From the NCBI RefSeq assembly GCF_018139625.1, contig NZ_JAGSOH010000001.1, forward strand, positions 62,001 to 126,000: a DNA stretch of 64,000 nucleotides. The letters run 5' to 3'. The stretch's first letter is position 1; each line of letters begins with the position of its first letter. The stretch is from Actinospica acidithermotolerans (lineage in GTDB: Bacteria; Actinomycetota; Actinomycetes; Streptomycetales; Catenulisporaceae). A program made the position numbers and the translations under genes. A model generated the notes under the pieces. The model was not told where the DNA came from. It saw only the letters and a list, made by a program, of their open reading frames with translations, and did no database searches. Below, piece by piece: positions 1,707 to 14,020 of this stretch.

Positions 1707-1741
1707 GCCGACCACCAGACCAGGAATACGAGGTGGGGGAC

Positions 1742-4321
1742 ATGCGTCCTCGCGTCGTCGCCACGTCCACGGCGACACTCATCGCCGCGGCCTCGCTCTC
1801 GCCGATGGCGGCGCAGGCGGCCGGGCAGAACACGATCTTCGTCAACAGTTCCAGTTCGGCATGCACCGACTCGGGCACCGGGACTGTCGCGGCCCCGTAC
1901 TGCACGCTCCAGGCGGCCGCCGACGCGGCGAATCCCGGTGACGTCGTGAACGTGGCGCAGGGTACGTACGCGCCCGCCACGATCACCCGCTCCGGCACCG
2001 CGTCCGCGCCGATCACCTTCACCGGCAACGGTGTGCGCAACGCCATCGGGAGGCTGGCCTACGCGGCGACCATCTCCGTCGACGTCAGCGGCGCGAGCTA
2101 CCTGAAGTTCCAGAACTTCGACATCATGCCCGGGAGCAGCGCCGCCGCCGCGGTGGTCGACGGTGGTTCCGACATCACGTTCAGCACCGACTGGTTCCAG
2201 GCCGCGACGCCCGCGGAGCCCTCGCTGCACGTGACCGACGGCGCGTCGGCCGTGACCGTGCAGGATTCCATCTTCTACGAGCAGATCCTCGTCGACGGCG
2301 GATCCTCCGGCACGATCCTCACCACGAACAGATTCAGCGATCTCGCCTCGAATCCGATCTCCGTGGTCGGCGCCGCGAACACGGCCATCACCAGCAACAC
2401 GGTGTACGGCTGCGGACCGGCGGTGTCGGTCACCGGCTCGGCGACCGGGACGAGCATCGAGAACAACGTCATCGGCAATCCCGCTACGTCCTCGACCACG
2501 ACCTGCCCCGCGCCGGCGCAGGCTGAGGACGGCATCCTGGTCGACGCGAGCTCCGCGTCCGGCACGACTTCCGACTACAACGACGTGTACGCGACGGGCT
2601 CTGCCTACGACTGGGCCGGCACCACATACGCGTCGGCCGCAGCGCTCTACGCGGCGGCAGGTCAGGCCCAGCACGACGACAACTCCCTGCTGGGTACCGA
2701 GACGACCGAGCATTCGCCGCTGATCAACTCGGCGAACTCCGCGGCGATCGGCGAACAGCCGCTCGACCTCAACGGCAATCCGCGCGTGATCGATCCGCTG
2801 GTGACGCCCACGGGCGCGGGACCGTACAACTACTACGACCGCGGCGCCATCCAGTTCCAGGACCCGGTGACGCTGACCTCGAGGAGCATCACGGCCTCGG
2901 CGACTCAGGCCCCTGTGGGCGGCGTGGTCACTCTGCATGCCTCAGCGACGGACACGTGGTCCAGCAAGTTCGACTACCAGTTCCGGATCAACGGCAGCAA
3001 CGGCACGCTGATCGACGGCGGGACGAGCGGTACCGCGACCGCCTCTTTCAGCACGCCGGGCGACTACGCTGCTTACCTGTACCTCGCCCCAACCAACGGC
3101 TCGCCGACCCCAGTTACACCGGCGGCCTATGTGCAGCTCGTCGTAGTCCCCGCCGCGCCGCTCGCGCCGCAGATTAGCGCGACCGCGGGTCCGGGACCGT
3201 ACGACGTCATCGTCGCCGACTCGGGCACGACGGATGCATGGAACATCACCGGGGTCACGTACGACTTCGGCGACGGCACGCCGACGCAGACCGTCGCCAC
3301 CGGGGCGAGCTCGACGCACACGTACGCCAAGGCCGGAACGTACACGATCACCGAGACGGTCACAGACGCCGACGGGAACAAGGCCACGACCTCGACGAGG
3401 TTCAGCACATCCGCACTGACCGCCGGAACACTGATCAACCTCGGCAGCGCACAGACGACCGACGTCCCCGCCAACTCCACCGGAATCGTCCAGGCGGCCG
3501 TCGGCTCGCTGCCCAACGGCACCAGCGATCTCGTCGCGGCCACCACCGCCGGGACGGTCGAGTTCGCCACCGGCAACAAGAACGGCACCACCTGGCAGTC
3601 CTGGCAGCAGCTCAGCCAGCCGGGAGTGACGGCGAGGTGGGTGGGGATCGCGGGCATGCCCAACGGCTCCTCCCAGCTCATCGAGGTCACATCCACCGGC
3701 AGCCTGCGGCACATCGTCCGCAACGCCAACGGCACCTGGCAGTCAAGCGGCTGGGGCACCCCGGCCGGTTCCACCGGGTTCGCGCACGCGTCGATCACCG
3801 CCATGCCCGACGGCTCGACGCAGCTTCTCGCCGTGACTACCTCGGGCGTGCTGATGCACAACATCCGCTTCGCCAACGGTTCCTGGCAGGGTTGGCGGGC
3901 GCTGAGCCAGCCGGGCGTCACGATCGTGGACGCGGGGATCGCCGGGATGCCCGACGGCTCCTCGCAGATCGTCGAGGTGACCTCCACGCAGGTGATGAAG
4001 CACGACATCCGCTACGCCAACGGGCGCTGGCAGCCGCAAGGCTGGGCCGTCCCCGCCGGCGGCACCGGGATCGCCGGGGTCTCGATCGCCGCTCAGCCCG
4101 CGTTCAGCAGCACGAGCACCTCCCTCGGCGCGGTCATCTCGGCCGTCACCACGCAGGGCGGCGTGCTCATCGGTATGCGCGAGGCCAACGGCTCGTGGTC
4201 CGGCTGGCAGAACTGGAGCGGCACGGCCACTGGACTCGGCAACTTCGGCACCGCCGCCAACGTGACCGACGCGACCCAGCACGATACGACGTTCCTGAAC
4301 TTCGCCGTGGCAGGAGGCTGA
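1742..4321 (+). CDS. Secreted beta-helix/PKD/WxxW-repeat protein (tandem paralogue)
   Basis: 859 residues. ATG 1742 is chosen over the in-frame GTG 1733 because GAGGTGGGGG lies directly before it and the signal peptide then starts with MRPRVV. Residues 1-30 are a Sec signal ending near AQAA. Residues 35-375 are a parallel beta-helix with the family N-terminal motif (CTDSGTGT, then APYCTLQAAADAA). A PKD domain lies around 500-558 (YDFGDGTPT, HTYAKAGTYTI). From about 576 to the end there are WxxW repeats of a probable beta-propeller. Several DNA stretches are nearly identical to the preceding gene, for example around 1274 and 3853, indicating recent tandem duplication or gene conversion. Probably an extracellular, carbohydrate-interacting protein; catalytic activity cannot be claimed, although beta-helix folds are common in polysaccharide lyases and hydrolases. 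Confidence 0.85.
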   Translation: MRPRVVATSTATLIAAASLSPMAAQAAGQNTIFVNSSSSACTDSGTGTVAAPYCTLQAAADAANPGDVVNVAQGTYAPATITRSGTASAPITFTGNGVRNAIGRLAYAATISVDVSGASYLKFQNFDIMPGSSAAAAVVDGGSDITFSTDWFQAATPAEPSLHVTDGASAVTVQDSIFYEQILVDGGSSGTILTTNRFSDLASNPISVVGAANTAITSNTVYGCGPAVSVTGSATGTSIENNVIGNPATSSTTTCPAPAQAEDGILVDASSASGTTSDYNDVYATGSAYDWAGTTYASAAALYAAAGQAQHDDNSLLGTETTEHSPLINSANSAAIGEQPLDLNGNPRVIDPLVTPTGAGPYNYYDRGAIQFQDPVTLTSRSITASATQAPVGGVVTLHASATDTWSSKFDYQFRINGSNGTLIDGGTSGTATASFSTPGDYAAYLYLAPTNGSPTPVTPAAYVQLVVVPAAPLAPQISATAGPGPYDVIVADSGTTDAWNITGVTYDFGDGTPTQTVATGASSTHTYAKAGTYTITETVTDADGNKATTSTRFSTSALTAGTLINLGSAQTTDVPANSTGIVQAAVGSLPNGTSDLVAATTAGTVEFATGNKNGTTWQSWQQLSQPGVTARWVGIAGMPNGSSQLIEVTSTGSLRHIVRNANGTWQSSGWGTPAGSTGFAHASITAMPDGSTQLLAVTTSGVLMHNIRFANGSWQGWRALSQPGVTIVDAGIAGMPDGSSQIVEVTSTQVMKHDIRYANGRWQPQGWAVPAGGTGIAGVSIAAQPAFSSTSTSLGAVISAVTTQGGVLIGMREANGSWSGWQNWSGTATGLGNFGTAANVTDATQHDTTFLNFAVAGG

Positions 4322-4873: not shown

Positions 4874-5182
4874 TCAGCAGAGCTCGATCACGGCCGCGGC
4901 TCTCTGCTGCGGCACGTCGGCGGCGTGGGAGTGGACGGTGAGCACGGCGCCGTCGACCTCGACGCGGCGGGTGCGGGTGGTGTCGCCTGCACGAAGGCGG
5001 TCGAGGCAGCGCAGGAACAGCTGCATCTCGGCGTCGTCGAGGACTGCGGCCGCCAGGTCCAGGACCGGGGCCAGGCTCTCGTCGGTGAGTTCGGCGGGCA
5101 GTTCACCCGACAGGAGGACGACCGATTCGCCCTCGCGGCCCCGGACCACAGCGGTGGTGGGCCCCCCTTGCACGACCAGCAC
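4874..5182 (-). CDS. Small protein of unknown function downstream of HTH regulator
   Basis: 102 residues if translation starts at GTG 5182, which has GAGGAG four bases upstream. A longer frame starts at GTG 5362, overlapping the stop of the HTH gene (GTGA). Its first 60 residues look non-coding and cover an AT-richer segment with two palindromes, so I prefer the short form. The product opens VLVVQGGPTTAVVRGREGESVVLL and then has a helical, acidic middle and a beta-rich end. No known domain is recognised. Its position directly after the HTH gene and beside the peptide cassette suggests a regulatory or immunity partner; this is inference only. Confidence 0.5.
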   Translation of the reverse strand: MLVVQGGPTTAVVRGREGESVVLLSGELPAELTDESLAPVLDLAAAVLDDAEMQLFLRCLDRLRAGDTTRTRRVEVDGAVLTVHSHAADVPQQRAAAVIELC

Positions 5183-5310
5183 GTGACTCCTCGGTGCGTT
5201 GCGCGGACGAAACCGGGGCGCGGATATGGCCCGGTCGGGCCCGTGCGCTTCGGTTTCTGCGACGTTAACCCGCGTCAGCGGTTCTTGGGGGAGTCTTGAC
5301 CGAATAGAAC

Positions 5311-5353
5311 GCGCCAATACTTGGCGCCAGTGCAGCGCCACCCGTAAGGGTGG
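5311..5353. promoter_or_regulatory. Two palindromes between HTH gene and its neighbour
   Basis: 5311-5327 is a perfect 7-3-7 palindrome, GCGCCAA-TAC-TTGGCGC. 5338-5353 is a second inverted repeat, CCACCC-GTAA-GGGTGG. They lie in the segment between the stop of the HTH gene and the preferred start of the gene ending at 4874. The first looks like a protein-binding operator and shares the CCAA...TTGG core with the operators in front of the precursor peptides, although its spacer is 3 rather than 5. The second could be an operator or an mRNA hairpin. Confidence 0.45.
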
Positions 5354-5358
5354 ATCGC

Positions 5359-5796
5359 TCACTCGTGCGGCGTAACGGCGGAACCAGCGCTCTCCGCGTT
5401 CTGCGCGTCCTCGTCGCCCTTGCCGCGCTCCAGCAGGGACTCGACGAGGGCCGCGACATGCCGACGGTCCTGTGCGGAAAGCTGGTTGAGGCTCGCGATC
5501 AGCACGTCGACCTCGGGGTCGGGGGCGGCCTCGTAGACGTGGATGCCGCAGGACTGCGCGGCGGCGCGGCGGACGGCGTCCAGCGGGAGCTCGAGTCCGC
5601 GGGCCAGGCCCTCGAGGGTGGCCGGCTGCGGCATGCGCACCAGGCGCTCGGCCGTGGCGAGGTGGTGCACGGTGGAACGCGGGATGCCGCCGCGCCGTGC
5701 CACGTCGCCGTAGGACCAGCCCTGGCGCTCCAGTCGCTCGCGCACCAGCTCCTGCAAGGCGTTCGACGCCGCGTTCGTCACTCTGGACACCTGCAC
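5359..5796 (-). CDS. Small Xre-like HTH transcriptional regulator
   Basis: About 145 residues from GTG 5796 (GAGGAG 12 nt upstream); nearby in-frame GTGs at 5790 and 5781 are alternatives. The open frame extends to 5958, but that part covers the probable promoter (TTGACT at 5898-5893) and is unlikely to be translated. The N-terminal half carries a helix-turn-helix (WSYGDVARRGGIPRSTVHHL) of the lambda-repressor type, followed by a second helical region containing LEGLARGLELPLDAVRRAA. The C-terminal part (EVDVLIASLNQLSAQDRRHVAALVESLLE) is a helical pair typical of small actinobacterial Xre-like regulators. It is transcribed divergently from the precursor peptides, so it is the natural candidate to bind the paired operators at 6005-6043. 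Confidence 0.75.
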   Translation of the reverse strand: MQVSRVTNAASNALQELVRERLERQGWSYGDVARRGGIPRSTVHHLATAERLVRMPQPATLEGLARGLELPLDAVRRAAAQSCGIHVYEAAPDPEVDVLIASLNQLSAQDRRHVAALVESLLERGKGDEDAQNAESAGSAVTPHE

Positions 5797-5976
5797 CTGT
5801 AGCCGGGACTCCTCGGACGGTCGATCTGCCCGGCCGACGACCCGTCGGACACCTGCCGGGACGTCGATTCTATGCGTAACACGCGTGACGCGAGTCAACC
5901 TGTCGCCACCGCATGTGTCCCGACCTGCCGATTCCGCTGCGTTACCGGCCTGTTGCAATCAGTTTCGGCGAAATGC

Positions 5977-6043
5977 TTGCGCGGCGCTCCGGCGATCCAC
6001 TACTGTCCAATCTCGTTGGACAGAACGTCCGACGCAATTGGAC
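5977..6043 (+). promoter_or_regulatory. Promoter and paired operators of the precursor-peptide operon
   Basis: A possible -35 TTGCGC (5977-5982) and -10 TACTGT (6001-6006) are 18 bp apart. Two copies of the same palindrome follow: GTCCAA-N5-TTGGAC at 6005-6021 (perfect) and GTCCGA-N5-TTGGAC at 6027-6043 (one mismatch). Their centres are exactly 22 bp apart, two helical turns, so two dimers would bind the same DNA face. The sites cover the -10 and start region, which favours repression. The ribosome-binding site GGAGGG of the first precursor follows directly. Confidence 0.65.
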
Positions 6044-6061
6044 GAACCGGAGGGATCCGTC

Positions 6062-6268
6062 ATGGACATGCACGAGCTCGAGGCCGAGACCGCTGAGCTG
6101 CTGCCGGGCCGCGAGGCGCTGGGCAAGCTCTCCTTCAGCTTCACCAAGAACCTCACGGTGCACAAGGCGTACGTCAGCGCCGACAACACCTCGAACGTCG
6201 GCAACTTCGGCTCGCCGGGCGCCGTCGCCGAGGGCGAGGCCGTTCAGAGCATCTCGATCACCCAGTAG
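6062..6268 (+). CDS. Ribosomal precursor peptide 1 (RiPP-like, unrecognised class)
   Basis: 68 residues from ATG 6062, with GGAGGG seven bases upstream; a longer frame from 5885 runs through the promoter and is rejected. The first 29 residues are almost the same as in peptide 2: MDMHELEAE, then ELLPGREALG, then KLSFSFTK. This is a typical acidic leader-like segment without signal peptide or transmembrane helix. It is followed by a variable stretch (NLTVHKAYVSAD), a conserved NTSNVGNF, a variable GSP, and a conserved tail ending QSISITQ. It has no cysteine, so a lanthipeptide core is unlikely. The next large gene encodes a membrane protease with a peptide-binding RRE-like domain, which suggests that this peptide is its substrate. 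I cannot assign it to a known precursor family. Confidence 0.7.
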   Translation: MDMHELEAETAELLPGREALGKLSFSFTKNLTVHKAYVSADNTSNVGNFGSPGAVAEGEAVQSISITQ

Positions 6269-6317
6269 CACCGCAGACCTTCCTACCGACCTTCCTCTCT
6301 AGCGACAGGAGAACACC

Positions 6318-6536
6318 ATGAGCATGGACATGCACGAGCTCGAGGCCGAGTCCGCCGAGCTGCTCCCGGGCCGCGAGGCGCTGGGCAAGCTCTCCTTCAG
6401 CTTCACCAAGACGGTGAACGTCTCGAAGAACGTGGCCGCGGTCGGCGCGTCCAACACCTCCAACGTGGGCAACTTCTGCTCCTGGGGCGCCGTCGCCCAG
6501 GGCGAGGCCGACCAGTCCATCTCGATCGCCCAGTAG
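6318..6536 (+). CDS. Ribosomal precursor peptide 2 (paralogue of peptide 1)
   Basis: 72 residues from ATG 6318, supported by AGGAG six bases upstream; an internal ATG at 6324 would give exactly the peptide 1 start. It is the same as peptide 1 over the leader-like segment except for one residue (T10 to S). It then has TVNVSKNVAAVGAS, the shared NTSNVGNF, a CSW triplet replacing GSP, and the shared tail QSISIAQ. It contains a single cysteine. The tandem copies differ mainly in two short windows, the pattern expected of precursors with a constant recognition part and diversified core positions. It is separated from the protease gene by a strong hairpin. Confidence 0.7.
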   Translation: MSMDMHELEAESAELLPGREALGKLSFSFTKTVNVSKNVAAVGASNTSNVGNFCSWGAVAQGEADQSISIAQ

Positions 6537-6557
6537 CCGGACCACGCCGAGGCACGG

Positions 6558-6587
6558 GGGTACCGCGGGCCGCCACCCGCGGTACCC
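6558..6587 (+). terminator. Strong hairpin between precursor and protease genes
   Basis: A perfect 12-bp inverted repeat, GGGTACCGCGGG at 6558-6569 and its complement at 6576-6587, with a 6-nt loop. It is not followed by a clear T-run. Its position after the small precursor genes suggests partial termination or mRNA protection, giving many precursor transcripts per protease transcript. Confidence 0.6.
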
Positions 6588-6613
6588 GACCGTCTTCACG
6601 AAACGCCGAGGAA

Positions 6614-8458
6614 ATGACAGTCGCTGCGAATGCGAAGACGCAGGCGTTCGTGCCCGGTCCGGGCGGGTTCGCCGTTTCCGTGCCGCCGGCCGACGCCGTG
6701 ATTCCGCCCGGCCGGAGCTTCCCCATCCCCCGGCAGAGCGCGGGACTGCGGTTGCACGGCGAGTACTTGGGCTCCGGGTTCACCGAGCCCAAGTACATCG
6801 CCCGGCGCGGAGACGGCCAGGTGCTGCAGCTCAGCCGGCTGCTGCACCTGGTCGCCGACGCGGTGGACGGACAGCGCGACACCGAGGGGATCTCCCACCG
6901 GGTCAGCGCCCGCCACGGCCGGGAGGTGAGCGAGGAGAACATCCGTTTCCTGCTCGACCACAAGCTGATCCCGCTGGGCGTCGTCGTGCCCTGGGATCAG
7001 GAGGGCGACGAGGTCGAGGCCCCGGGCACCGACCTGCTGCTCGCCCTCAAGGGCCATCGCGTCATGTTCAGCGAGGCGCGGGTCAACAAGATCGGCAAGT
7101 CGCTCGCGTGGCTGCACCGGCCGCCGATCGTCGCCCTCGTGCTGCTCGCCGCGGTGGTGATGGACGTCTGGCTGTTCGGGTTCTACGGCGCGATGGGGCC
7201 GGTCCTCGGGGTGCTGAACCAGCCGGTGCTGATGCTCGCGGTGTTCGCGCTGACGGTCGCGTCGCTGGTGTTCCACGAGTTCGGCCACGCATCGGCCTGC
7301 AGATACGGAGGCGCGCGACCAGGGTGTATCGGTTGCGGCCTCTATCTCGTATGGCCGTCGATGTACACCGAGGTCACCGACGTCTACCGGATCAATCGGG
7401 CCGGCCGGCTGAGAACGGATCTCGGCGGCGTGTACTTCAACGTCGTGTTCATGCTGGTGCTGACCGGTTGCTACCTGCTGACCGGCCAGCCCTTCCTGTT
7501 GAGCGCCGTCTACCTCGGGCACTTCGAGGTGCTCGAGCAGCTGATGCCGGCGGTGCGGCTCGACGGCTACTACATCCTCGGCGACATAGCGGGCGTACCC
7601 GACCTGTTCGGCAAGATCAAGCCGATCCTGCGCAGCATGATCCCGGGCCGGCCGACGCCGCCCGAGGTCAGGGACCTCAAGCGCTCGGCTCGCATCATCG
7701 TCACGGTGTGGGTGCTCGCGATGGTGCCGCTGATCCTGGGCGACCTGGGATACGCGCTGTGGAACCTGCCCCGTCTCCTGTCGACCGGGGCGCGCTCGCT
7801 TTCGGAGCAGCTGTCCGGCACCGGTTCGGCGTTCGTGCACGGGCAGATCGCGGTGGGGCTCGTGGGCGTGATCGGCAGCCTGATGCTGATCATCCCGCTG
7901 GCCGGAATGGTGTACCTGTCGGTGCGGCTGACGGGTCGTCTGATGCGGACGCTGCGGCGGGCCAGCGAGGGCAACACCCGGCTCCAGATCGGGATCGGCG
8001 CGGTGGGCGCGCTCCTGGTCGGCGGCCTGTGCTTCGCCTGGGTCGTCGGCCTGACGCCGAAGCCGCTGCCGCCGACCGCGCCGATCGTGCCCGCGTTGCA
8101 GCCGGGCGTCCCGACGGTGATCGCGGCGCCGAGCGGCCCGACCGGCTCGACGGCCTCGAGTTCGCCGGCGGCCGTGCGGCCGTCGCCGAGTTCGCTGCCG
8201 AGCGTGCACCACAGCGCGTCGGCCTCCGCGGCCGCCGCGGCGGCGAGCGCCAGCGCTACCGCATCGGTCTCGGCCACGGCCGGCACCTCCGCTCCGGCTA
8301 CCTCGCCGAGCCCGAGCACGGTGGCGAAGAGCACGTCGCCGGCCGGGGGTTCGTCCGGTGGCTCCACGCCGACGCCGACCGCGTCGGCGAGCCCCTCGCC
8401 GTCGGGTTCGGCGACGACCGCGACCACGACCCCGACGCCCAGCGCATCCACAACCTAA
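6614..8458 (+). CDS. Membrane M50 (site-2-type) metalloprotease with PqqD/RRE-like domain
   Basis: 614 residues. Residues about 44-125 resemble a PqqD/RiPP-recognition domain: EPKYIARRGDGQVLQLS, a dG-x-t helix-turn, then a winged-helix-like end at FLLDHKLIPLG. Several membrane segments follow. HEFGH at 221-225 supplies two zinc ligands and the catalytic Glu, and RLDGYYILGD at 315-324 supplies the third (Asp 317), the classic M50 pair. From about 500 to the end is a Pro/Ala/Ser/Thr-rich low-complexity tail after the last membrane helix. Families with this architecture are annotated as putative peptide zinc metalloproteases and occur in some epipeptide-type clusters. Here it probably binds the leader of the two preceding peptides and cleaves or releases them at the membrane. 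GAGGAA abuts the start codon, an unusually short spacing that may limit translation. Confidence 0.85.
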   Translation: MTVAANAKTQAFVPGPGGFAVSVPPADAVIPPGRSFPIPRQSAGLRLHGEYLGSGFTEPKYIARRGDGQVLQLSRLLHLVADAVDGQRDTEGISHRVSARHGREVSEENIRFLLDHKLIPLGVVVPWDQEGDEVEAPGTDLLLALKGHRVMFSEARVNKIGKSLAWLHRPPIVALVLLAAVVMDVWLFGFYGAMGPVLGVLNQPVLMLAVFALTVASLVFHEFGHASACRYGGARPGCIGCGLYLVWPSMYTEVTDVYRINRAGRLRTDLGGVYFNVVFMLVLTGCYLLTGQPFLLSAVYLGHFEVLEQLMPAVRLDGYYILGDIAGVPDLFGKIKPILRSMIPGRPTPPEVRDLKRSARIIVTVWVLAMVPLILGDLGYALWNLPRLLSTGARSLSEQLSGTGSAFVHGQIAVGLVGVIGSLMLIIPLAGMVYLSVRLTGRLMRTLRRASEGNTRLQIGIGAVGALLVGGLCFAWVVGLTPKPLPPTAPIVPALQPGVPTVIAAPSGPTGSTASSSPAAVRPSPSSLPSVHHSASASAAAAAASASATASVSATAGTSAPATSPSPSTVAKSTSPAGGSSGGSTPTPTASASPSPSGSATTATTTPTPSASTT

Positions 8459-8466
8459 GGAGAGAA

Positions 8467-9183
8467 ATGACAGCTTCGCATCGCAAGGAAGGCCGGCCCG
8501 AGGCGGGCTCGCGCCGCCTGGCCCGATTCGGCGTGCTCGCCACGGCGGCGGTCGGCACAGTCGCCACGATCGGCGGTGTCGCACAGGCCGTGACCGTCGG
8601 CGGCGGGACCTACACGAACTCCAACGGCGTCGCCGTCGCGGAGGATCACACCTTCGCGCTCAGCAACCCCCAGAACCAGACCTCGTTCAAGGACTCGTTC
8701 ACGGTCCACCAGGCCGGCTCGGTGGACGCGGCGTACCTGCACAACGAGGCGACCGCAGAGTCGGTGTCCTGCTCGCCGGACGCGCCGTGCCACTCGGTCT
8801 CGCTCTCGTTCCAGATCGTCACGATGGCGGGCACCGACATCCACCTGAGCGCGAACAACTACAGCAACGCCGTGAACGAGCACTGCGCCGGATGCCAGAC
8901 GGTCGCCGGCGCCTACCAGTTCGTCGTGGACACGCCCGGCGCGTTCACGCTGAGCAAGACGGCCATGAAGCAGCTCGACGAGATCCACCACGAGCTCAAC
9001 GCGCTGAACAACTCCTCGCTCTCCGCGGACCAGGTCCAGTCGGCGGCAGACGCGCTGGCGCTGAAGGTGGCGGCGATCCTGAAGAACGCCGCCGCGACCA
9101 CGCCCGAGGGACCGGTCATGCAGCCGCTGACCAAGTCGTTCACCCCGAGCGTGCGGATCTACCGCGATTTTCAGCAGCACTGA
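8467..9183 (+). CDS. Secreted four-cysteine protein of the peptide locus, unknown function
   Basis: 238 residues from ATG 8467, with AAGGAG just upstream and only 8 nt after the protease stop, so it is clearly in the same operon. It has an N-terminal twin-basic region, a hydrophobic stretch (GVLATAAVGTVATIGGVAQA) and a probable cleavage site after A41 (AQA). The mature part is Asn/Ser/Thr-rich and beta-like, with cysteines at 102, 108, 140 and 143 (CSPDAPC and CAGC), suggesting disulfides or metal binding. A helical segment (165-210) follows, then a tail after TPEGP. No known domain is recognised. It may be the extracellular receptor, carrier or immunity partner of the peptides; this rests on context only. 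Confidence 0.7.
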   Translation: MTASHRKEGRPEAGSRRLARFGVLATAAVGTVATIGGVAQAVTVGGGTYTNSNGVAVAEDHTFALSNPQNQTSFKDSFTVHQAGSVDAAYLHNEATAESVSCSPDAPCHSVSLSFQIVTMAGTDIHLSANNYSNAVNEHCAGCQTVAGAYQFVVDTPGAFTLSKTAMKQLDEIHHELNALNNSSLSADQVQSAADALALKVAAILKNAAATTPEGPVMQPLTKSFTPSVRIYRDFQQH

Positions 9184-11473: not shown

Positions 11474-11845
11474 TCAGATCAGCAGCGCCAGGCCAAGGCC
11501 GGCGGCACCCGCCAGCAGCCCGGACGCGATGCTGCCCGCGATGTTGCCGAGGGAGCCGGCCAGCGAGCCGTCCTCGGTGAGCCGGATCGTCTCGAAGTTG
11601 AACGTCGAGAAGGTCGTGTAGCCGCCGCAGACGCCGGTGCCCAGCACGCTGACCACGTGCGCGTTCAGGCCGTGGTGCACGGCTAATCCGGTGATCAGGC
11701 CGAGGATGAAGGACCCGGAGACGTTGATCACCCAGGTTCCCCACGGGAACGCCGACTCCCACCTGGTCCCGACGAACTGGTCCAGCAGGTAGCGCGCGAG
11801 CGCGCCGAGGGCCGCCGCGAGGCCGACGAGGATGGCGAGCAGCAT
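11474..11845 (-). CDS. crcB: Fluoride ion channel CrcB/Fluc, subunit 1
   Basis: 123 residues, four membrane helices. Family hallmarks are GALARYLLDQ in helix 1, WGTWVINVSGSFILG in helix 2 (channel Asn) and GTGVCGGYTTFSTFNFE in helix 3 (the Phe/Thr/Ser track and the sodium-binding break). It exports fluoride passively as a dual-topology dimer. The ATG at 11845 shares one base with the stop of the DUF190 gene (TGATG), so translation is coupled. A second crcB lies upstream in the same operon, so the two products may form a heterodimer. Confidence 0.9.
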   Translation of the reverse strand: MLLAILVGLAAALGALARYLLDQFVGTRWESAFPWGTWVINVSGSFILGLITGLAVHHGLNAHVVSVLGTGVCGGYTTFSTFNFETIRLTEDGSLAGSLGNIAGSIASGLLAGAAGLGLALLI

Positions 11846-12183
11846 CAGGGTTTCCGCCCCACGTACCGGATGACCTCGACGTCGTCGATGATGACCAGGC
11901 CCTCCGTCACCAGTTCGTCGAGCTGCGGCAGGAACGCGTCGATCCGCTCGCGCTCGTCCACGATGACGATCGCGACCGGCAGGTCCTGGGACAGGCTGAG
12001 GATGCGGGTGGTGTGGATGTGGCTGCTGGCGCCGAAGCCCTCGATGCCGCGCATGACGGTCGCACCGGCGAGCCCGGCGCGGTGGGCCCGGTGCACGATC
12101 TCGGTGTAGAGCGGGTGGTGGTGGAACTGGTCGCTCTCGCCGACGAAGATCGTCAGCCGCCGTGCCGGGCCGGTCGTTCTCAT
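11845..12183 (-). CDS. DUF190 protein (GlnB/PII-like fold)
   Basis: 112 residues starting [20 protein letters not shown] at ATG 12183, which overlaps the stop of the upstream crcB by four bases (ATGA). The core includes [28 protein letters not shown] and, towards the C-terminus, [19 protein letters not shown], the signature of DUF190, a small PII-like ferredoxin fold. The family repeatedly sits next to crcB genes and is suspected to bind a ligand and modulate the channel; this is not proven. Here it lies exactly between the two channel subunits. Confidence 0.85.
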
Positions 12184-12692
12184 CGCAAGGCCTCTGATTC
12201 GCTCGGGTCGGGCTGCTGTGCGGGGATGAGCGGGCCCTCGGCGCGCCGCCTGCGGTAGGCGACCAGGGCCCGGCCGCAGGCGAGGCCCAGCGTCGTGGCG
12301 GCCAGCCCGGCGAGCAGCGAGCCGAGGACGTTGGCGGCCGCGAGGCCGTAGCGGCCGGCGGAGATCAGCCTGTCGGTGTCCACCATCCACGTGGAGAACG
12401 TCGTGTACGCGCCGCAGAAGCCGGTGGCCAGCAGGGGCCTGAGGTACTTCGTCGGCGGCCAGACTTCGAGGATCAGCACCAGCAGCAGCGCCAGGATGAA
12501 GGAGCCGGAGATGTTGATCGCGAAGATCGTCGCCGGGAACGCGCCGTGCGCCGTGGGGAACGCCAGGCCGAGCAGGTAGCGCGCCTCGCCGCCGAGGAAG
12601 CCGCCGGCGGCGACGGCCCCGAGCACGCGCGGATCCTGCCGGCGTCGGCGCGGTCGGGCGGCGAACGGGTGTCCGTCGGCTTCGGTGGCCAT
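12180..12692 (-). CDS. crcB: Fluoride ion channel CrcB/Fluc, subunit 2
   Basis: 170 residues from ATG 12692; a TTG at 12713 would collide with the purD start and is rejected. A basic N-terminal extension (RPRRRRQD) precedes four membrane helices with [22 protein letters not shown] and [16 protein letters not shown], all CrcB hallmarks. The C-terminal tail is hydrophilic. It is the first gene of the crcB-DUF190-crcB-DUF3626 operon. The two CrcB proteins differ strongly outside the motifs, which fits a fixed-topology heterodimer rather than a dual-topology homodimer. Only 20 nt separate it from the divergent purD, so the promoters must overlap. Confidence 0.9.
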
Positions 12693-12712
12693 AGCGACAG
12701 CGTATAGGCTCA

Positions 12713-14020
12713 ATGACCGTGAAGATTCTGGTCATCGGCGGCGGCGGCCGCGAGCACGCGATCTGCGTCGCCCTCAGCAAGGACGATTCCGTCACCGCGC
12801 TGCACTGCGCCCCCGGCAACCCCGGCATCGCCGAGGTCGCCGCGCTGCACCCGGTGGACTCGCTCGACCCGGGCGCGGTCGCCGCGCTGGCCATCGAGCT
12901 GGGCGCGGACCTCGTCGTGGTCGGACCCGAGGCGCCGCTGGTGGCCGGGGTGGCGGACGCGGTGCGCGCGGTCGGGATCCCCTGCTTCGGCCCGTCCCGC
13001 GAGGCGGCGCAGCTCGAGGGCTCCAAGGCCTTCTCGAAGGACGTCATGGCCGCGGCCGGCGTGCCGACCGCCGAATCCTTCGTCTGCACGACGCTGGAGC
13101 AGGCCGAGCACGCGCTCGACGCGTTCGGGCCGACCTACGTGGTGAAGGACGACGCCCTGGCCGCGGGCAAGGGCGTCGTCGTCACCGATGACCGGCGGGC
13201 CGCGCTTGACCACGTCCGCGACTGCGTGCTGCGGCCCGGCGGCGGCCGCGTCGTGATCGAGGCCTTCCTCGACGGGCCCGAGGTCTCGCTGTTCGCGATC
13301 ACCGACGGCGTGACCGTGCTGCCGCTGCAGCCCGCGCAGGACTTCAAGCGGATCGGCGACGGCGACACCGGGCCGAACACAGGTGGCATGGGTGCCTACT
13401 CGCCGCTCGACTGGGCCCCGGCCGGGCTGGTCGACGAGGTGATGGCGCTGGTGCTGCAGCCGACCGTGGACGAGCTGCGCCGCCGCGGCACGCCGTTCGC
13501 GGGGCTGCTGTACGCGGGCCTGGCGCTGACCAGCCGCGGCACCCGCGTCGTCGAGTTCAACGCGCGCTTCGGCGACCCGGAGACCCAGGTCGTGCTGCCG
13601 CTGCTGAAGACCCCGCTGGCCTCCGTGCTGCTGCGCGCGGCGACCGGCACGCTGGCCGACCAGCACCCGCTGAGCTGGCACGACGGCGCCGCGGTCACCG
13701 TGGTGCTCGCCTCCGACGGCTACCCGGTCAAGTCCCGCAGCGGCGATGTGATCCGCGGGATCAAGGCGGCCGAGATGCTCTCCGCGCCGACCGGCGGCTC
13801 GGTCACGGTCTACCACGCCGGGACCGCGCGCAACGCCGAGGACGAGTTGGTCACCGCGGGCGGCCGGGTGCTCGCCGTGACCGGTCGCGGCCGCGATCTG
13901 GCCGAGGCGCGCAAGATGGCCTACGCGGGCGTCACCGAGATCGGGTTCGACGGCGCGCAGCACCGCACCGACATCGCCGCCGCGGCACTCGCCGGGCAGG
14001 TCCGCGCGGCCGACGCGTAG
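12713..14020 (+). CDS. purD: Phosphoribosylamine-glycine ligase (GAR synthetase)
   Basis: 435 residues, normal length. It catalyses step two of purine synthesis, joining glycine to phosphoribosylamine with ATP. The N-terminal [13 protein letters not shown] motif, the ATP-grasp region ([16 protein letters not shown]), the [17 protein letters not shown] loop and [14 protein letters not shown] are diagnostic. There is no Shine-Dalgarno. TATAGGCT ends two bases before the ATG, so the transcript may be leaderless or start just upstream. It starts the purine region and is divergent from crcB. Confidence 0.95.

Follow-up and report, generated by a model that had tools for sequence, protein, structure and literature searches.

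What is made by a locus in which a recognition element for ribosomally synthesized and post-translationally modified peptides (RiPPs) sits on a membrane protease, next to genes for two short peptides? RiPP recognition elements (RREs) are regarded as a mark of RiPP modification; here the RRE is on the protease, and no conserved modifier is found in the locus across actinomycete lineages. We analysed such a locus at positions 4874-9183 of a 64,000-nucleotide stretch of Actinospica acidithermotolerans (contig NZ_JAGSOH010000001.1, positions 62,001 to 126,000), hereafter the window. An earlier note, made from the letters alone, had described a divergent regulator gene, twin peptide precursors, an M50 protease with an RRE-like domain and a secreted four-cysteine protein, here termed CYS4. 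All of these elements are present and their coordinates are correct, and the interpretation placed on them was partly supported. The answer that we favour, at a probability of about one half, is that RRE-guided cleavage by the M50 protease releases an unmodified β-hairpin peptide that adds onto CYS4 to form a surface fibre or coat.

Conservation of the locus

In the window, the genes of precursor 1 (6062-6268, plus strand, 68 amino acids (aa)) and precursor 2 (6318-6536, plus strand, 72 aa) are followed on the same strand by the gene of the 614-aa RRE-M50 protease (6614-8458) and, beginning 8 nt after it as described earlier, by that of CYS4 (8467-9183), which carries four Cys and belongs to a conserved family. 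Divergent from the precursors, on the minus strand, lie the gene of an XRE-type helix-turn-helix (HTH) regulator (5359 to about 5790; HTH_3, E 4e-6) and, as the second gene after it, that of a conserved small protein, P6 (4874-5182, 102 aa).

Scanning GTDB species genomes with the precursors yielded 79 loci in Actinospica, Streptacidiphilus, Streptomyces and Actinacidiphila, to which the window and one plasmid locus were added, giving 81 loci. Precursors were present in all 81, M50 in 76, HTH and P6 in 74 each and CYS4 in 66, and several of these gaps are contig ends. The usual gene order was P6 and HTH leftward and two precursors, M50 and CYS4 rightward, and the recurrence of this arrangement in dozens of species is far above chance. 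When all predicted neighbourhood genes were clustered, no further gene was present in a majority of the 81 loci, which agrees with the self-contained locus of the earlier note; the next-commonest neighbour groups (26 loci) were Streptomyces chromosomal neighbours in fixed synteny. The note had seen no gene for a modifying enzyme or exporter in the vicinity, and none was among the genes conserved with the locus. The note had also tied its reading to the existence of precursor homologues beside RRE-M50 genes in other genomes, and such homologues were found.

Among 198 genomes of the order, the 20 with precursors were exactly the 20 with CYS4. Because these genomes are related, the 20 co-occurrences are not 20 independent events; gains and losses of precursors and CYS4 clearly occur together. 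A search of phage records gave no match to the protease, and literature searches found no description of such a system.

An RRE fused to a membrane protease

The protease carries its RRE at the N-terminus (about residues 40-120) and ends in an extracytoplasmic Ser/Thr/Pro-rich tail (480-614). An AlphaFold2 (AF2) model built from 48 aligned sequences placed strands at residues 46-51, 60-64 and 70-73 and helices at 75-83, 90-101 and 107-118 before the membrane part, the three-stranded sheet plus three helices that are expected of an RRE of the PqqD or lasso B1 type. In a Foldseek search with the whole model, the top match was TbiB1, a lasso RRE with leader (probability 0.97), followed by 6jx3 (0.84) and TruD (0.91) and, at little distance, by LynD (0.80); TglHI and SkfB were also among the matches, and GdmN-type matches were interspersed. 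Most of the leading matches were thus RRE proteins, with weak E-values (0.3-1) because only about 85 of the 614 residues align. A sequence profile of the M50 protein gave nothing meaningful in the PDB, and the Pfam PqqD model gave a weak match (E 0.048) at the position of the RRE in one fused protein of a distant relative. In contrast to the LiaK/YydH models, which cover M50 only, the daptide protease model of NCBIfam, NF041824, spans both RRE and M50 (E 6e-17, residues 61-331), so that the nearest kin is a daptide-type RRE-M50 protease and not the epipeptide type named in the earlier note.

The window protein contains HEFGH (H221-H225) and LDG (D317), and H221, E222, H225, D317 and G318 are invariant in 49 sequences, as expected of an M50 site-2 protease. 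Alignment hydropathy and the AF2 helices make seven membrane helices probable. Because Lys and Arg lie on the RRE side and are almost absent from the tail, in a positive-inside pattern, we place the RRE inside and the tail outside. A housekeeping site-2 protease was considered and rejected. That the RRE binds the leader and M50 processes the precursor is a well-supported inference, and the modelled RRE fold agrees with the earlier suggestion that the protease probably both reads and cuts the leader.

Precursor cores with the pattern of a β-hairpin

The two window precursors, which have no signal peptide, had been called near-identical. This holds for the leader (about the first 28 residues) and not for the cores, which have diverged and bring overall identity down to 79%. 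Homologues occur mostly as tandem pairs in all 81 loci; one locus (L134, 8565-9920) has three main-family precursors in tandem ahead of M50 instead of two. The most conserved part is the leader motif LPx[RK]E, seen in the window as ...ELLPGREALG..., and the core ends in an invariant Gln, as in 136 distinct main-family precursors. Across the cores of this family, Cys is not conserved and Thr is not invariant. Neither the precursors nor CYS4 nor P6 matched Pfam or NCBIfam.

In an alignment of 59 sequences, the last 34 positions alternate between conserved (about 4.0-4.1 bits) and variable (about 2.0-2.2 bits), and the alternation shifts register once, at a turn. The difference between lag-2 and lag-1 autocorrelation was 1.18 for the core, a value matched by 1 of 100,000 shuffles; the same test found no alternation in the leader (p 0.64). 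The conserved face consists of A, N, S, Q and I/V and is kept across genera. Because conservation alternates around one turn, the core pattern reads as strand-turn-strand with one buried face. Such a pattern is found in β-solenoids and functional amyloids and is unlike most RiPP cores.

The hairpin shared with CYS4

CYS4 has a signal-peptide-like N-terminus, six β-strands in three hairpins, a C-x5-C and a C-x2-C pair, a helical hairpin and a last strand, in an AF2 model with a mean predicted local distance difference test score of 82 (above 90 across most of the β core). Alignments of the precursors and of CYS4 were compared with hhalign, which paired A-x-V-x-A-x-N-x-S-x-A-x-N of the core with LNAxNxSxAxNxxCxxCQT..A..AYQFV of CYS4 (P 0.0016, at a probability of only 16%). 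A hidden Markov model (HMM) built from the core only was run against the 20,698 open reading frames (ORFs) of the collected loci and found 15 matches at E<=1 besides the known precursors, namely nine CYS4 proteins and six ORFs of distant loci that are precursors there. In the AF2 model, the matching segment forms a hairpin (strands 126-138 and 144-156) with Cys at the turn; the hairpin before it (88-121) is laid out alike and holds the other Cys pair. By inspection of the model, CYS4 looks like two or three core-like hairpins plus a helical hairpin.

Structural matches of CYS4 in Foldseek and VIA-align were weak, with β-solenoid-like and unrelated rows at E >0.3 and Z <4, and a row for the CsgA fibril (Z 3.6, root-mean-square deviation 8) was not counted as evidence. 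One CYS4 homologue (G053:C9:224119-224763) contains one in-frame TAG; that genome has two precursor genes.

Fusion of protease and CYS4 in distant relatives

A CYS4 profile run against 395 genomes of the class found CYS4 in 22 genomes outside the order, and the RRE-M50 gene was present again in nearly all of the loci retrieved from them. The closer loci encode CYS4 separately, with three upstream precursors of the ...EELPDREAMSLINANLAAPVNAAVAANVLSDNSVAYANAEQ...ITQ type. In other distant loci, M50 and CYS4 form a single reading frame of about 770-870 aa, and the gene directly upstream encodes a longer precursor (about 230-390 aa) with the leader ...ALPDKEVVSILDLN... and two core copies. The precursors beside these fused genes also carry LPx[RK]E, and the fused-type loci have no common adjacent HTH gene.

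When 390 genomes of the class were searched with a precursor profile, 31 gave a match. Among these 31 were 21 of the 22 genomes outside the order in which CYS4 had been found; in the remaining one, the contig starts inside the M50 gene. In the ten extra genomes found by this profile, an M50 gene adjoins the precursor and is visibly fused to a CYS4 domain in seven. Because M50 stands beside the precursor in distant genomes and is often fused to CYS4, the minimal system consists of a precursor and RRE-M50-CYS4. CYS4 is placed on the outside because of its signal-peptide-like N-terminus when separate and its position after the extracytoplasmic tail when fused. Neither this fusion nor the hairpin shared with the precursor could be seen from the window sequence on which the earlier note was based.

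A dedicated operator pair

In 60 of the 81 loci, the divergent genes have between them an operator of the form GTCCAATCTCGTTGGAC-N5-GTCCRA-N5-TYGGAC. Its 22-bp spacing is fixed in all listed loci with both halves, and half 1, the 5-nt centre included, is identical in most of the 60. The pair was found in 59 of the 61 loci with an adjacent divergent HTH gene and in one of the 20 without. In the window, the halves occupy 6005-6021 (GTCCAATCTCGTTGGAC) and 6027-6043 (GTCCGACGCAATTGGAC) on the plus strand, 22 bp apart, and the two matches compare with 0.03 expected by chance, which bears out the dedicated operator pair of the earlier note. The -10 box of a putative promoter (TTGCGC-N18-TACTGT, 5977-6006, plus strand), read from the sequence by consensus only, overlaps half 1, and the same promoter layout is visible by eye in relatives. 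In the 7.9-Mb genome, the pair (<=3 mismatches) occurs in two places, here and at an orphan copy on contig C65, and half 1 (<=2 mismatches) only in the same two.

The orphan copy (about 870-2700 of C65; loci L003 and L136) comprises a third precursor, a second CYS4 gene and its own P6 with the same operator pair; it lacks both M50 and HTH, and a LuxR-type regulator adjoins it. P6 is about 86 aa long in relatives and is mostly kept in position and strand. The 162-aa ORF found in the window starts too early (5362) according to the homologues, and the true start is GTG at 5182 (MLVVQGG...). Five loci (L048, L066, L068, L072 and L076) have an additional HTH gene nearby, in most cases together with an additional P6, and lack the operator pair, which suggests that regulation has been rewired there.

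A proposed mechanism and its alternatives

In the mechanism that we propose, the HTH protein, with P6, would control one promoter through the tandem operator. Both precursors would be made in the cytosol, where the N-terminal RRE of M50 would bind the LPGREAL motif of the leader. M50 would then, as has been proposed for EpeP, remove the leader at the membrane and release the core. This core would stay chemically unmodified, fold as a strand-turn-strand hairpin and add by β-stacking onto extracytoplasmic CYS4, whose own hairpin may hold a disulfide or a metal at its turn and which relatives carry attached to the protease. A cell-surface fibre or coat would result.

Several points weigh against this reading. 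Taken one sequence at a time, CYS4 matches the core weakly (best E 0.015), the hhalign probability is 16%, and the CYS4 relatives concerned are not mutually independent. CYS4 has no PDB match by sequence profile or Foldseek, and the likeness of its model to β-solenoids is below significance. Export through M50 without an ABC transporter is a proposal even for EpeP. Finally, rodlin genes lie near the locus in one clade only: within a single Streptomyces clade, rodlin-like genes (IQGTLNKPC) stand about 2.6 kb away in six to eight loci (at about 5400-6200 in L033, L034, L035, L051, L053 and L087), and these neighbours are compatible with a surface role but may reflect a single event.

Four other explanations were weighed. 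CYS4 could be a module of the protease on which the substrate docks, or else a metal-binding knuckle, and serve only to aid release, the free peptide being used otherwise. The fusion to M50, two Cys pairs that could bind metal and a likeness to the core that could be substrate mimicry are all in keeping with such a role, which we consider unlikely but deserving of weight; against it, the orphan precursor-CYS4 pair on C65 lacks M50, and in the window CYS4 is a separate secreted protein.

Rather unlikely is an unmodified secreted signalling peptide, in which M50 would release a pheromone to which the HTH protein, or CYS4 as receptor or carrier, responds. The dedicated HTH gene and operator, the small size of the peptides and the precedent of M50 in peptide maturation (PMC10885120) would fit it. 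However, the faces of the core are kept across genera without divergence into pherotypes, two-core precursors of 230-390 aa beside fused M50-CYS4 are ill-suited to a small diffusible signal, and a common adjacent HTH gene is lacking in the fused-type loci. The earlier note had offered a signal-peptide system as one possibility, and this is weakened because the cores look structural, given their periodicity, the likeness to CYS4 and the long two-core forms elsewhere.

The note's other possibility, a RiPP that is modified by an enzyme with its gene elsewhere and for which RRE-M50 performs the last step only, appears improbable to us, although the related daptide protease does act after modification (PMC10036551). 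Neither the 81 loci nor the distant minimal two-gene loci contain a conserved modifying gene, and conservation in the core falls on A, N, S, Q and I/V, with invariant Thr and Cys absent. The operator, with only two sites, marks no other gene in the genome and therefore speaks against a co-regulated modifying enzyme elsewhere. A two-peptide bacteriocin with small genes as immunity, for which tandem short peptides without signal sequence and the retention of pairs in most loci might speak, was considered and rejected as very improbable, since the mean net charge of the core is slightly negative (-1.1) and its grand average of hydropathy (-0.3) marks it as hydrophilic, a double-Gly leader and an exporter are lacking, and CYS4 shares the hairpin.

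Comparison with known systems

The daptide protease MpaP is an RRE fused to an intramembrane site-2 protease, beside which lie several short precursors that have a leader motif in common and end in an invariant Thr (PMC10036551). An N-terminal RRE on M50 and adjoining short precursors with a shared leader motif are also what our locus has in common with daptides. In contrast to daptides, the precursors here end in Gln, the leader reads ELLPGREAL instead of ELExMEAP, CYS4 is present as a partner, and NF041824 scores 61.9 bits (99-106 bits in the distant relatives) against a curated cutoff of 300. None of the daptide aminotransferase, dehydrogenase, methyltransferase, DUF-RRE and ABC transporter is conserved among the 81 loci.

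For EpeP, one membrane protease has been proposed both to cut and to export, and it is not the sole route in Bacillus subtilis (PMC10885120). The likeness to the epipeptide proteases EpeP/YydH/LiaK concerns the M50 part only (LiaK model, E 4e-10, residues 208-322; LiaK/YydH model, 39.9 bits against a curated cutoff of 225), and here the RRE is fused to the protease, the precursors are different and a four-Cys partner is present. A radical SAM epimerase was neither common to the loci nor among the Pfam-named neighbours in the window, in a comparison that did not extend to a family-by-family scan of each genome. The locus belongs to neither the daptide nor the epipeptide systems. Because the daptide ending and enzymes are absent, the score lies far below the curated cutoff and only M50 is shared with epipeptides, we file it as a variant of leader-guided M50 processing.

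A separate analogy is with functional amyloids (curli CsgA/CsgB, chaplins and rodlins): there too, the repeat units have an alternating small/polar face, and the same unit recurs in a partner that may act as nucleator. No sequence homology to these was shown, the subunit here has no Sec signal, and leader, RRE and M50 take the place of a secretion channel. The fibre or amyloid likeness, drawn from sequence patterns, comes only from the strand-turn-strand periodicity and the shared hairpin. There is a chance that the locus is a new kind of fibre biogenesis. Only tentatively do we suggest an undescribed route in which a RiPP-type RRE guides a membrane protease, the hairpin subunits remain unmodified and the protease carries, or pairs with, an extracytoplasmic nucleator of the same hairpin.

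Should the locus make a surface polymer, self-assembling subunits that carry no Sec signal would have a way out of the cell through leader-guided proteolysis, and the protease-fused domain that resembles the substrate would act as an in-built nucleator at the point of exit. The parts are small (a 72-aa precursor, one protease, one partner and one promoter), and this gene set of many soil actinobacteria may represent a new way of making surface fibres. For genome miners, it would be a caution against taking every RRE-M50 locus for an antibiotic cluster.

Related and neighbouring genes

A plasmid locus of Streptomyces changanensis (L005) encodes an RRE-M50 protein about 40% identical to ours and two precursors with the leader GELLPERAVLSAF (the three genes at 3903-4145, 5780-6076 and 6347-7996). 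No CYS4 was recognised there, and the core is Gly-rich with two Cys; it is probably another RRE-M50 peptide family with a related leader motif.

The neighbours in the window that Pfam names are an RlaP-type nucleotidyltransferase, a DNA alkylation repair protein, DUF3626, CrcB and PurD. Two similar large proteins with PKD domains are encoded in tandem at 90-1706 and 1733-4321, the second also with a right-handed β-helix region, and two CrcB genes (fluoride channel type) lie close together on the minus strand at 11477-11845 and 12183-12713.

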